Assembly: GCA_002841155.1 (NCBI GenBank)
Contig: PHEH01000002.1
Span: 186,001 to 250,000, forward strand
From: Alphaproteobacteria bacterium HGW-Alphaproteobacteria-18
GTDB taxonomy: Bacteria > Pseudomonadota > Alphaproteobacteria > Caulobacterales > Hyphomonadaceae
Length of the DNA stretch: 64,000 nucleotides
Direction of reading: 5' to 3'
The notes below the pieces were generated by a model. The model was given only the letters and a program-made list of their open reading frames with translations. It did no database searches and was not told where the DNA came from. Both the position numbers and the translations under genes were made by a program. This document shows, piece after piece, positions 8,922 to 35,756 of the stretch; the stretch's first letter is position 1, and the number at the start of each line of letters is the position of its first letter.

Positions 8922-10067
8922 ATGGGCGGTGTGCGCGCAAAGTATGAGGCGAAGGTGGCCAGCGGCGCCCTGACAGCCGACCCGGTGCAGGCGGAGGCGG
9001 CCGCTCTGCTCGACGGGCTGGCGGCACGCCTTGCCAACCAGCCAAAGCCCGGATTCTTCTCAGGAAAACCTGTGCCTGTGCGCGGGGTGTATCTCTGGGG
9101 CGGAGTTGGCCGGGGTAAATCGATGCTGATGGACCTGTTCTTTGCGCAGGCCGTCACGAAGCCGAAACGGCGCGTCCATTTCCATGAGTTTATGGCGCAG
9201 GTGCATGAGCGCCTGGGCGTCTGGCGGAAGATGACGGACGCGGAGCGGAAGCGCTCTCCCTGGCGGGTGAAATCGGCCGGGGATGACCCGATCCCGCCGG
9301 TGGCGAGGCAGATTGCGGCCGAAGCCAACCTACTCTGCTTTGACGAGTTTCAGGTGGCCCAGATTGCGGACGCAATGATCCTGGGGCGACTGTTTGATCA
9401 GCTGTTCCAGCGGGGCGTGACGGTGGTGGCAACCTCCAACCGGCATCCTGACGACCTCTATAAGGACGGCATCAACCGCCAGCTTTTCCTCCCCTTTATC
9501 AAGGAGCTGAAGGACCGCTGCGAGGTTCTGGAGCTGGTTTCGGCGCGCGATTACCGGCTCGACAGGCTGGTCGAGGCGCCGGTCTGGTATGCGCCGCTGG
9601 ATGCGACAAGCGCGGCAGCGCTGGACAAGGCCTGGGACCGGCTGACGCTGGGGGCTGAGCCCCAGCACTGCGTGCTGACGGTGAAGGGCCGCAAGCTGGA
9701 GGTGAGCCGGGAGGCGGCAGGGGTGGCGCGGTTCACGTTTGAGGAGCTGTGCGCGCGGCCTTTGGGGCCGATCGATTACCTTGCGATTGCAGGGACTTTT
9801 CACACGGTGATGCTGGAGGGCATTCCCCTGCTCTCCCCGGACAAGCGGAACGAGGCGATGCGCTTTACCGGGCTGATTGACGCGCTCTACGAAGCCAAGG
9901 TGAAGCTGGTGGCGAGCGCAGAGGCAGAGCCCGGCGCGCTTTACCCCACCGGGGATGGATCGTTCGAGTTTGAGCGCACGGCGAGCCGGCTTTTCGAGAT
10001 GCGGTCGAAGGATTATCTGGCCCAGGCGCGCGAGGATGTCGATCTGGGCGATCTGTCTGAAAATTAA
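8922..10067 (+). CDS. zapE: cell division protein ZapE (AFG1-like ATPase)
   Basis: 'GVYLWGGVGRGKSMLMDLFF' Walker A, 'LLCFDEFQVAQIADAMILGRLF', 'VVATSNRHPDDLYKDGINRQLFLPFI'. Confidence 0.93.
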   Translation: MGGVRAKYEAKVASGALTADPVQAEAAALLDGLAARLANQPKPGFFSGKPVPVRGVYLWGGVGRGKSMLMDLFFAQAVTKPKRRVHFHEFMAQVHERLGVWRKMTDAERKRSPWRVKSAGDDPIPPVARQIAAEANLLCFDEFQVAQIADAMILGRLFDQLFQRGVTVVATSNRHPDDLYKDGINRQLFLPFIKELKDRCEVLELVSARDYRLDRLVEAPVWYAPLDATSAAALDKAWDRLTLGAEPQHCVLTVKGRKLEVSREAAGVARFTFEELCARPLGPIDYLAIAGTFHTVMLEGIPLLSPDKRNEAMRFTGLIDALYEAKVKLVASAEAEPGALYPTGDGSFEFERTASRLFEMRSKDYLAQAREDVDLGDLSEN

Positions 10068-10170
10068 GGACAATTTGGGTCATCCACGGGATATCCGGGC
10101 GCCAATTGCCGGACAAACCGGGACAGTCTGGGACATTTCGGGACAGTTTGGGACAGGTAAGGACACGGGC
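10068..10170 (+). repeat. GGACA array with exact 10-bp period (zapE-rpoH intergenic)
   Basis: GGACA at 10111, 10121, 10131, 10141, 10151 and 10161 with no deviation; further GGACA at 10068 and GGTCA at 10078. Confidence 0.85.
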
Positions 10171-10447
10171 TTGCACCTTGCGGCGGCCTCCTTACATCCC
10201 CCTCAGGGACCGGCCCGATCGGGGATACCGGCCCGCGACAACACAGAGATGTGATCCCGGCCGGAAACCCGCGCCGGCCCCTCTTCCACACGCCTGCCTC
10301 AATTCCTATTTATGCATCTGCGTGATGATTGAATTGCGCACGCCCGGTGACGACGCCGCCGCTGAGCGGGGCTAAGCTCCAGGTGAGCTCTAAGGAATGG
10401 GGCAGGCCGCCCAATGAGGGGCCGGTTCCGAACAGGAGGACGTAAAC

Positions 10448-11344
10448 ATGGCGAATGCGAACGCAAAAAGCTCGGTCGCGCTGAGCCCCGAACAGGGGAT
10501 GAGCCGGTATCTGAGCGAGATCCGCAAATTCCCGATGCTCGAGAAGAATGAGGAATTCATGCTCGCCCGCCGCTGGCGCGAGGATGAAGACACCGAAGCC
10601 GCCGAGAAGATGGTAACCTCCCACCTGCGCCTGGTGGCGAAGATTGCGATGGGCTATCGCGGCTATGGCCTGCCGATGGCCGAGGTGATCTCCGAGGGCA
10701 ATGTGGGCCTGATGCAGGCGGTCAAGAAATTCGATCCCGACAAGGGCTTCCGCCTCGCCACCTATGCGATGTGGTGGATCCGCGCCGCGATCCAGGAATA
10801 TATCCTGCGCAGCTGGAGCCTTGTGAAACTTGGCACCACGGCGGCCCAGAAGAAGCTGTTCTTCAACCTGCGCCGCCTGAAGGGCGAGATGCAGGCGCTG
10901 GAGGAAGGCGACCTGAAACCCGAACAGGCCCGGCTGATCGCCGAGAAGCTCAACGTCACCGAAACCGAAGTCTATTCGATGAACGGGCGCATGAGCGGGT
11001 CGGACGCGTCGCTGAACGTGCCGATGGGCACCGATGGCGACATGGAATGGCAGGACTGGCTGGCCGATGATGAACCCGGCACGGCCGAAACCTTCGCCAA
11101 CCGCCAGGAACTCGACGCGCGCATGACGCTGCTGACGCAGGCGATGGAAGACCTTTCCGAACGCGAGCGCCACATCCTCACCGAGCGGCGCCTGGTGGAC
11201 GAGCCCAAGACGCTGGAAGAGCTGTCCGAGCAGTATAACGTCTCGCGCGAACGCATCCGGCAGATCGAGGTGCGTGCCTTCGAGAAGTTGCAGAAGGCGA
11301 TGAAGCGGATGGCCAAGGAACAGGGCCTGCCCGTCGGGGCCTGA
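10448..11344 (+). CDS. rpoH: RNA polymerase sigma-32 (heat-shock) factor
   Basis: 'SEGNVGLMQAVKKFDPDKGFRLATYAMWWIRAAIQEYILRSWSLVKLGTTAAQKKLFFNLR' is the RpoH region 2 / RpoH box. Confidence 0.97.
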   Translation: MANANAKSSVALSPEQGMSRYLSEIRKFPMLEKNEEFMLARRWREDEDTEAAEKMVTSHLRLVAKIAMGYRGYGLPMAEVISEGNVGLMQAVKKFDPDKGFRLATYAMWWIRAAIQEYILRSWSLVKLGTTAAQKKLFFNLRRLKGEMQALEEGDLKPEQARLIAEKLNVTETEVYSMNGRMSGSDASLNVPMGTDGDMEWQDWLADDEPGTAETFANRQELDARMTLLTQAMEDLSERERHILTERRLVDEPKTLEELSEQYNVSRERIRQIEVRAFEKLQKAMKRMAKEQGLPVGA

Positions 11345-12069: not shown

Positions 12070-12393
12070 ATGGAAATCAGAACCTATGTCGATGCCGACG
12101 GGGACGATAAGTTTTTAGAAGATTTGAACGGTTTGCCCCGTGCGGCGCAGATCAGAGTTTGGACCGCAATTGGACGTATGGAACTTGGGAATTTGGGAGA
12201 TCACAAATCACTGGGAGACAGCATCTGGGAACACCGGATTCATGCTGAAAGCGGCATCCGGGTGTATTTTGGCAAGGTTGGCCAAGAGATCGTCCTTCTC
12301 CTGACAACTGGACTTAAGAAGTCACAAAGAAAAGACATTGAAGAAGCAAAACGAAGGTGGACTGACCATGAACAAAGGCAAGATTCCCCCTAG
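12070..12393 (+). CDS. RelE/HigB-family toxin
   Basis: 'MEIRTYVDADGDDKFLEDLNGLPRAAQIRVWTAIGRMELGNLGDHKSLGDSIWEHRIHAESGIRVYFGKVGQEIVLLLTTGLKKSQRKDIEEAKRRW' fits the HigB/RelE addiction-module toxin family. Confidence 0.85.
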   Translation: MEIRTYVDADGDDKFLEDLNGLPRAAQIRVWTAIGRMELGNLGDHKSLGDSIWEHRIHAESGIRVYFGKVGQEIVLLLTTGLKKSQRKDIEEAKRRWTDHEQRQDSP

Positions 12394-12703
12394 CCGGCCC
12401 CATAGCGAAGCGCTGGCAGAATTCATGTCTGACATCGACAATGCGATCGGCATGTTCAGCCATGCGCTTGAGCAATTTGCTGATGGCAATGACGATGAAG
12501 GAAAAATTGCGCTCAGAGTTCTGGTAAAAGGGCGGATCGGTTTTGAGCGCCTGGCAAAAGAAACGGGCATTCCAGCGCGCAGCCTTAACCGGATGCTCTC
12601 CAGCGACGGCAATCCTTCCCTCTCAAACCTCTCCCTGATTATCCGCCATCTGCACACCGAACTTGGCATTGAGCCCAATTGGACGTTGACGGCTGCGGCC
12701 TGA
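12368..12703 (+). CDS. HigA-like antitoxin (HTH)
   Basis: Overlaps the toxin 3' end; 'RIGFERLAKETGIPARSLNRMLSSDGNPSLSNLSLIIRHLHTELGI' helix-turn-helix; ATG at 12368. Confidence 0.82.
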   Translation: MNKGKIPPSRPHSEALAEFMSDIDNAIGMFSHALEQFADGNDDEGKIALRVLVKGRIGFERLAKETGIPARSLNRMLSSDGNPSLSNLSLIIRHLHTELGIEPNWTLTAAA

Positions 12704-34522: not shown

Positions 34523-35749
34523 TTATTGCCCGGCAGGTGCCCGGAACGGAGCTGCCACTTCATTCACGGTGTCGCCGGTGTCGCTCTTGATGGCAAGACG
34601 GACCGTGCCGCCCTCCCAGTCAATCTCAATGGCGCCGAAATTATTGGGGGCATAGCCGGGCCCGATCTGCGCATGATCGACCTCATCAGAAGTCTCGCGC
34701 ATCGAGACATTCATCGAAGAGGCCGTTATCTCATAGGCGGGATAGGGCAGCACCGTGTCGTCCCGGTAGAGGAAGGCCGTGTGACGGTCGCCAGAGACAA
34801 AGACCACGCCTTCAGCCTCGGTCTCCGAGATCAGCCCGTAAAGACGGGCCTGCTCGGCCGGCAGGCGCGACCAGGCTTCATACCCATGACCATCGGTCGT
34901 CATCACCTGGATCGAAGACACGATCAGGCGCAGGTCAGCCGGCTCCTGAAGCTGGTTCTCCAGCCAGGTCCACTGGTCATTGCCCAGCATGTCCTGCCCT
35001 TCGGACGCGGACGGAACGTAGCGTTCCTTTCCTTTGACGCCCCATTCATCGGTTGGTGTCAGGGGCGAGCGGAAGAAACGGGTGTCGAGCATGATGATCT
35101 GCACCCGCTGGCCCTCGGGGCCGAAGCTGCGGGCGTAATAGGTGCCCGGCCAGGCGCCGACATCCTCATTCTCAAGGCCCCAGAAGCGCTCATGGATACG
35201 CTCCGCCAGGCGGCGGAAGGGAAACTCCCGGCCCGCATCATTGGCGCCGTAATCATGGTCATCCCAGGCCACCATCATCGGGTGCTTTGCCCGCACGGCC
35301 TGAAAGTCGGCCCGCGCGGCCAGATCGCTGAAGCTCTCGCGCAGTTCATCCAGGGTCGCCTGATTGCTGATATAGCTGCGCCCGTCCATGTCGCCATAGA
35401 CATTGTCCCCGATCATCAGGAAGAGGTCGGCGTCTTCGGCGGCAATCGTCGACATCGCGGTACCGTCTTCGGTCTCCTCATTGAAACAGGAGCCGACCAG
35501 GATACGCGTGAGCACGCTATGATCGCCGGGCAGCGAAACGCCCCTTGGGGCGCGTGGGAAGAAATCCTCCGGCAGGGTGCGGTAGTAGAATTCAAGCGCC
35601 GCCTCGGCGCTCGCCGGGGAGAGAAGGTCAGACGGCAGGAGTGTCAATTCCCCGGCAGGCGTTTCCGCAACCGGCGCCGGGGCCGGTGTCTGGCAAGCCG
35701 CCAACGCCAGAATGATAGGAATGACCGAAAGTGTCCTGAACTGTCCCAT
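34523..35749 (-). CDS. PhoD-like alkaline phosphatase/phosphodiesterase lipoprotein
   Basis: Lipobox 'ILALAACQ'; 'MIGDNVYGDMDGR', 'MMVAWDDHDYGANDAG', 'VFVSGDRHTAFL' metallophosphatase motifs. Confidence 0.85.
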   Translation of the reverse strand: MGQFRTLSVIPIILALAACQTPAPAPVAETPAGELTLLPSDLLSPASAEAALEFYYRTLPEDFFPRAPRGVSLPGDHSVLTRILVGSCFNEETEDGTAMSTIAAEDADLFLMIGDNVYGDMDGRSYISNQATLDELRESFSDLAARADFQAVRAKHPMMVAWDDHDYGANDAGREFPFRRLAERIHERFWGLENEDVGAWPGTYYARSFGPEGQRVQIIMLDTRFFRSPLTPTDEWGVKGKERYVPSASEGQDMLGNDQWTWLENQLQEPADLRLIVSSIQVMTTDGHGYEAWSRLPAEQARLYGLISETEAEGVVFVSGDRHTAFLYRDDTVLPYPAYEITASSMNVSMRETSDEVDHAQIGPGYAPNNFGAIEIDWEGGTVRLAIKSDTGDTVNEVAAPFRAPAGQ

Positions 35750-35756
35750 AGTGTCC
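35732..35756 (-). repeat. second GGACA array with 10-bp period, spanning the PhoD-like start codon
   Basis: + strand TGTCC at 35732, 35742 and 35752 (GGACA on the coding strand), flanked by GGTCA on each side. Confidence 0.75.

Follow-up and report, generated by a model that had tools for sequence, protein, structure and literature searches.

The window, the whole 64,000-nucleotide stretch of DNA that was analysed, stems from a 3.88-Mb draft genome in 48 contigs (G000) and carries a phased array of GGACA words between zapE and rpoH. The features considered below are as follows (window coordinates, strand in brackets).

8922..10067 (+): zapE, whose 3' end abuts the array (NF040713, 416 bits)
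10068..10082 (+): outlying GGACA (10068, directly after the zapE stop codon) and GGTCA (10078)
10111..10165 (+): phased array of six exact GGACA units at 10-bp pitch, kept in G008 (L178), G016 (L177) and G048 (L289)
10297..10447 (+): rpoH leader/promoter region, outside the array (spacers of L181, L186 and L187 compared with L176 and L178)
10448..11344 (+): rpoH (TIGR02392, 364 bits)
35722..35756 (-): second array of three exact units and a GGTCA, overlapping the start codon of the ORF 34523-35749 (-)

The array between zapE and rpoH

The words of the array start at 10111, 10121, 10131, 10141, 10151 and 10161 and are separated, in order, by the spacers AACCG, GTCTG, TTTCG, GTTTG and GGTAA. A previous sequence-only reading had described the six words, their spacers and the outliers at 10068 and 10078 with exact coordinates, and its gene names, zapE and rpoH, were confirmed by the family matches listed above. 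The array starts 43 bp behind the zapE stop codon, and 282 bp separate its end from the start of rpoH. The outlying GGTCA lies 33 bp (three 11-bp steps) ahead of the array, and decayed units are found at the equivalent place of the orthologous G008 spacer; the two outliers are a probable eroded upstream part of the same array. When up to two mismatches were allowed, the three-unit pattern matched six times in the window, compared with 0.07 matches expected from shuffles; four of these matches came from the zapE-rpoH array and two from the minus-strand array at 35722-35756. Searches against Rfam gave no match anywhere in the window. Further downstream, a RelE/ParE-type toxin gene (12070-12393; TIGR02683) is followed by a small ORF (12368-12703), a probable toxin-antitoxin pair.

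The sequence-only reading had named absence of the array from the orthologous spacers of close relatives as an argument against it. G000, G008, G016 and G048 share the array in identical orientation; in G046 it has decayed, and the array-free species inspected (L181, L186, L187) lack it. The latter retain rpoH and its leader (CAATTCCTATTTATGCA... onward, window position ~10297), which only a short spacer separates from their zapE stop codon. Judged by the aligned spacers, the array is an element of their zapE-proximal half.

A family of phased arrays in one clade

Exact matches to the three-unit pattern numbered 183 in G000, 150 in G016 (a single contig of 3,705,021 bp) and 146 in G008, and the reversed three-unit pattern, used as a control, gave none. 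Four-unit arrays were matched 105 times in G000, 72 times in G016, 69 times in G008 and 17 times in G048; the other genomes of the genus (n=42) had none, so that abundant arrays are present in 4/42 members and missing from 38/42. Among 384 other genomes sampled from the class, there was a single stray match. The zapE-rpoH array thus belongs to a conserved set, with some 70 or more chromosomal arrays per genome. Several contigs of Hyphomonas sp. DS1.007 also carry arrays and are 83-89% identical to G000 or G016 over long alignments, which points to Hyphomonas as the genus. Literature searches for the motif found nothing.

At lower stringency, traces were detected in three sister species (24 matches with at most one mismatch in G046, 12 in G049 and one in G045). 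In a tree of mraZ-rsmH DNA, the seven species with arrays or traces form one clade, with moderate inner supports of 84-94%; G049 is basal, G046 stands beside G000 and G016, and G045 is placed beside G048 with G008. Given this single clade, the arrays are most likely older than its split and were later eroded in two lines. At equivalent places, G046 has words such as GGTCA..GGCCA..GAACA. An alternative array word was sought in this species and not found, and by their sequence these sites are GGACA arrays in decay. The erosion in G045 and G046 suggests the loss of a dedicated factor.

Each unit consists of GGACA and a loose V-W-Y-Y-V spacer, with a preference for C before the core in G048. Arrays continue past their exact units with GGNCA words, for the most part GGACA and GGTCA, in steps of 10 or 11 bp. 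This distance was kept in G016 by 26/27 flanking words upstream and 15/16 downstream (41/43), the two exceptions lying at 13 and 15 bp. Mixed 10- and 11-bp steps are a signature of DNA helical phase and argue against a reader at the RNA level. Weak edge units around a strong centre fit cooperative binding of the kind described for Apl and other recombination directionality factors (PMC7498355) and for BldC (PMC5859096).

Arrays were projected between genomes through flanking alignments, with G016 as the target. All testable arrays (25/25 from G000, 11/11 from G048 and 3/3 from G049; 39/39) had a counterpart at the same place and on the same strand, and no projected place was empty. At least 25/33 sampled G000 arrays have a G016 counterpart, a sample in which arrays private to G000 would be under-represented because the G016 stretches were fetched around that genome's own arrays. 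Identity to G016 within the cores was 513/515 for G000, 213/215 for G048 and 45/45 for G049 (771/775, 99.5%), a figure that is inflated by the recognition of arrays through their cores, which leaves the absence of empty places unaffected. Spacer identity was 62%, 47% and 57%, respectively, and unit number differs between orthologous arrays. Slippage or copying would have kept the spacers as well, yet only the cores are kept; purifying selection therefore acts on the GGACA cores.

Genomic placement and rival explanations

Gene boundaries were set with a simple purpose-made caller, which reproduced the expected zapE and rpoH coordinates. In G016, 45/66 classified arrays are intergenic, compared with 12% expected (p=5e-27; 88% of the fetched DNA was called coding), and 21/66 lie inside genes. 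The intergenic arrays are depleted between divergent genes (5/45, with 33% expected by length; p=0.0008) and enriched between convergent genes (15/45, with 15% expected; p=0.002). Between codirectional genes, they are nearer to the upstream stop codon by 18:7, and several arrays start in phase with the stop codon itself (TGACC...TGTCC). No preference for the transcription strand was seen among the G016 arrays (25:21), nor any replichore strand skew (11:7 versus 14:14, Fisher p=0.55; counted by hand, with the origin assumed at contig position 0). The neighbouring genes, named by eye from sequence, include dnaK, ndk and clpP-like, surF1-like, mlaC-like and nudix-like genes, among which no common functional theme was seen. 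The 3'-end placement could reflect tolerance, with sites surviving where they are least harmful, instead of a 3'-end function, and among the arrays inside genes or at gene starts (such as that at 35722-35756), a few could be regulatory.

Other dispersed sequences were noted near arrays. TTGGAG repeats at 11-bp pitch together with a hairpin (GTTGGAGTTTTCC..AAAAACTCCAAC) make up a second dispersed element, which lies 10-72 bp from several GGACA arrays (L050, L256, L272 and L041 in G016; L156 and L162 in G000). Some contigs end, beside arrays, in a long dispersed repeat, GGGCATAATACCTCCG...GGTGGATAGGGTGAG (L159 and L169, at the starts of the G000 contigs C7 and C14, and L009), which may be a mobile element favouring array-bearing intergenic regions.

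The sequence-only reading had taken the array for an operator, bound cooperatively by an oligomerising protein, that controls rpoH. Its structural part stands: the 10-bp phasing is real, is under selection and fits a cooperative oligomerising protein on one face of the DNA. Control of rpoH does not follow, since the array belongs to a family lying mostly away from promoters. The genome scan which that reading had proposed returned at least 70 arrays per genome beside unrelated, mostly housekeeping genes; these avoid divergent promoter regions, favour convergent 3'-3' regions and lie nearer to the upstream stop codon, and conservation of the rpoH-proximal leader extends, among the genus members inspected, to species that have no array. 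A broader version, in which a clade-specific transcription factor (OmpR/PhoB-like, MraZ-like or BldC-like) controls rpoH and ~70 other genes, can draw support from the footprints of such factors, which consist of phased direct repeats (BldC, PMC5859096; Apl, PMC7498355), from the arrays located just upstream of genes or on start codons, and from the retention of the zapE-rpoH array in four species. We nevertheless regard it as unlikely, because the placement relative to divergent and convergent genes and stop codons, the third of arrays inside genes, the indifference to gene strand, the functional incoherence of the neighbours and the array-independent conservation of the rpoH leader all speak against it. 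The closeness of the arrays to stop codons would instead suit an aid to termination, either as a site for Rho loading (rut) that is recognised in the RNA as UGUCC-N5 or as a roadblock on the DNA against read-through at gene ends. With one UCC per 10 nt, the sequence is similar to a rut site, and in G016 an intrinsic terminator was predicted within 200 bp in 77% of the genes with a TGTCC-sense array behind them, compared with 27% of the others, although some of these predictions are T-runs that belong to the array. A Rho site should be strand-specific, and the arrays are balanced with respect to transcription; their strict 10/11-bp phasing is a constraint on DNA, not on RNA, and Rho exceeds its family cut-off in 41/42 genus genomes, with near-equal scores whether arrays are present or not. 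We consider a role in termination, in which a DNA roadblock may still have a part, to be no likelier than operator control.

Variable unit number, the other dispersed repeats adjoining several arrays and the several contig starts within 600 bp of an array might point to functionless decamers spread by slippage and mobile elements. Such a passive or selfish repeat is improbable: slippage or copying cannot produce a pattern in which the core alone is conserved and spacers diverge freely, and all 39 projected arrays kept their position and strand. The least probable of the explanations weighed is that the arrays are landmarks for segregation or replication (parS-like, KOPS-like or for nucleoid occlusion), possibly linked to chromosome transport through the stalk in budding cells. 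Their genome-wide, intergenic and constrained occurrence, roughly one per 50-80 kb, would agree with this role; abundant arrays are missing from 38 of the 42 genus members, and the lack of replichore polarity under the assumed origin indicates that they are not KOPS-like, as FtsK-directing sites would be skewed.

With moderate confidence, we favour the view that the arrays, at least about 70 in number, are nucleation sites for a putative head-to-tail polymerising protein with an architectural or insulating role at gene ends. This protein would bind one GGNCA word per helical turn, GGACA best, and its head-to-tail polymer would cover 3-9 strong units flanked by weaker GGTCA or GGCCA units. The filament would act on the DNA as architecture, be it as a nucleoid organiser or as an insulator at the ends of transcription units, and not as an operator of the neighbouring gene. 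Protein binding, its cooperativity and the architectural role are what we infer from the arrays; the last is the most likely role of such a filament given the mostly intergenic position of the sites, close to stop codons, in convergent regions and off promoters. More tentatively, a lineage-specific chromosome organiser polymerising on tandem 10/11-bp GGNCA words at gene ends may have been gained, and may now be in the course of being lost, within one genus.

If this model is correct, culturable budding alphaproteobacteria carry a genome-wide, strongly constrained DNA code without a known reader, and bacteria would be able to use filament sites of defined sequence as labels for gene ends. Nature also provides a loss-of-function comparison in the sister species whose arrays have eroded, and ChIP-seq has already been applied to H. 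neptunium ATCC 15444 (PMC7200025).

Candidate readers and known systems

No binder was found among MraZ, Rho, the AbrB-Doc pair, HTH_17 proteins and an HTH-citrate synthase. MraZ is single-copy in 41/42 genus members, with or without arrays, and the mraZ upstream loci inspected carry conserved GCCCAT/ATGGGC words and not GGACA, so that the arrays are not sites of an MraZ regulon. A conserved GCCCATTGAGGCCCATNNNNGCCCATGATA upstream of mraZ (L248-L250, L252) looks like the MraZ box of the genus. Rho was set aside owing to its near-uniform presence, described above. An AbrB-like protein beside an array (G016 341524) belongs to an AbrB-Doc pair, and the array-free G022 and G018 likewise have AbrB-domain matches at an equal distance from zapE. 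The G016 array in question (341392-341426) lies ~80 bp upstream of this AbrB-Doc-type toxin-antitoxin pair (about 341509-342116, L033) and has an orthologue in G000.

The search for HTH_17 (BldC-type) proteins revealed none restricted to array species. In G016, it gave two weak matches, a 167-aa frame, also matched in G000, G045, G046 and G049, and a citrate-synthase-like protein with an N-terminal HTH_17/MerR-like domain (L698, L713, L702 and relatives). Within the clade, the latter looked concordant with the arrays, as G045 and G046, the two species in which these have eroded, lack it, but many array-free congeners have it too. Just upstream of its start codon lies a conserved TTGATCAATATAATCAA and no array.

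IMG/VR also yielded many GGACA arrays, frequently within the linker of genes for phage replication. Many phased viral matches with varied spacers were likewise obtained with two control pentamers, GGCAA and GGAAC; GGACA is thus not special in viruses, which provide no evidence for a shared reader, and this lead was dropped. The viral arrays probably belong to a general class of phage arrays with 10-bp pitch, in part origin iterons. Pentamer-N5 arrays at this pitch often lie inside the linker of phage replication genes (GGACA, GGAAC) and elsewhere in phages (GGCAA), on viral contigs such as L344, L354, L373, L421, L423, L603 and L645; those in the linker are probably lambda-O-like in-gene origins. 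The chromosomal arrays, mostly found between housekeeping genes, do not have the location of phage-type in-gene origin iterons.

Pentamer-N5 architectures are known from several bacterial systems. MraZ boxes (TGGGN-N5 repeats) share with the GGACA arrays the pentamer, the 10-bp pitch and several tandem units, but occur at one site, the mraZ operon. CpxR/OmpR-type boxes (GTAAA-N5-GTAAA) and AbrB sites (TGGNA-N5-TGGNA) have the same pentamer-N5-pentamer layout, and AbrB is nucleoid-like with many sites; unlike the arrays, these sites usually comprise two units, and the AbrB-like gene of the clade sits in a Doc-type toxin-antitoxin pair. The REP/BIME elements of enterobacteria, thought to recruit nucleoid proteins, are also dispersed and 3'-intergenic, but REPs are palindromic hairpins and GGACA arrays direct repeats. 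Sites of the parS, MatS and SlmA type are likewise palindromic, whereas the proposed GGNCA system would use sequence-specific direct repeats.

The Beggiatoaceae TAACTGA repeats are heptamer direct repeats mostly located just upstream of start codons, for which an action as RNA has been proposed (PMC4679880). They resemble the arrays as genome-wide, intergenic sets of short direct repeats. The GGACA words differ in being pentamers, in the variability of their spacers, in their helical phasing and in their closeness to stop codons. The Caulobacter nucleoid protein GapR is enriched at gene 3' ends and between convergent genes (PMC8360656, PMC8510090), a preference that the arrays share along with indifference to strand (PMC8360656); it reads overtwisted AT-rich DNA without a fixed word, whereas GGACA sites are strict words. 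In organisation, the arrays resemble the sites of recombination directionality factors (RDFs) such as lambda Xis, phage 186 Apl and P2 Cox, which are direct repeats one helix turn apart (10-11 bp for Apl; PMC7498355), and those of BldC, whose length varies greatly (PMC5859096). RDFs and BldC are small proteins that bind cooperatively head-to-tail, and direct repeats at 10-11 bp pitch, in variable number and with weaker edge units, are found in the GGACA arrays as well. The RDF and BldC sites are located at attachment sites and promoters, whereas the GGACA arrays are spread over the chromosome at 70 or more places, keep away from divergent promoter regions and are not tracked by any HTH_17 protein.
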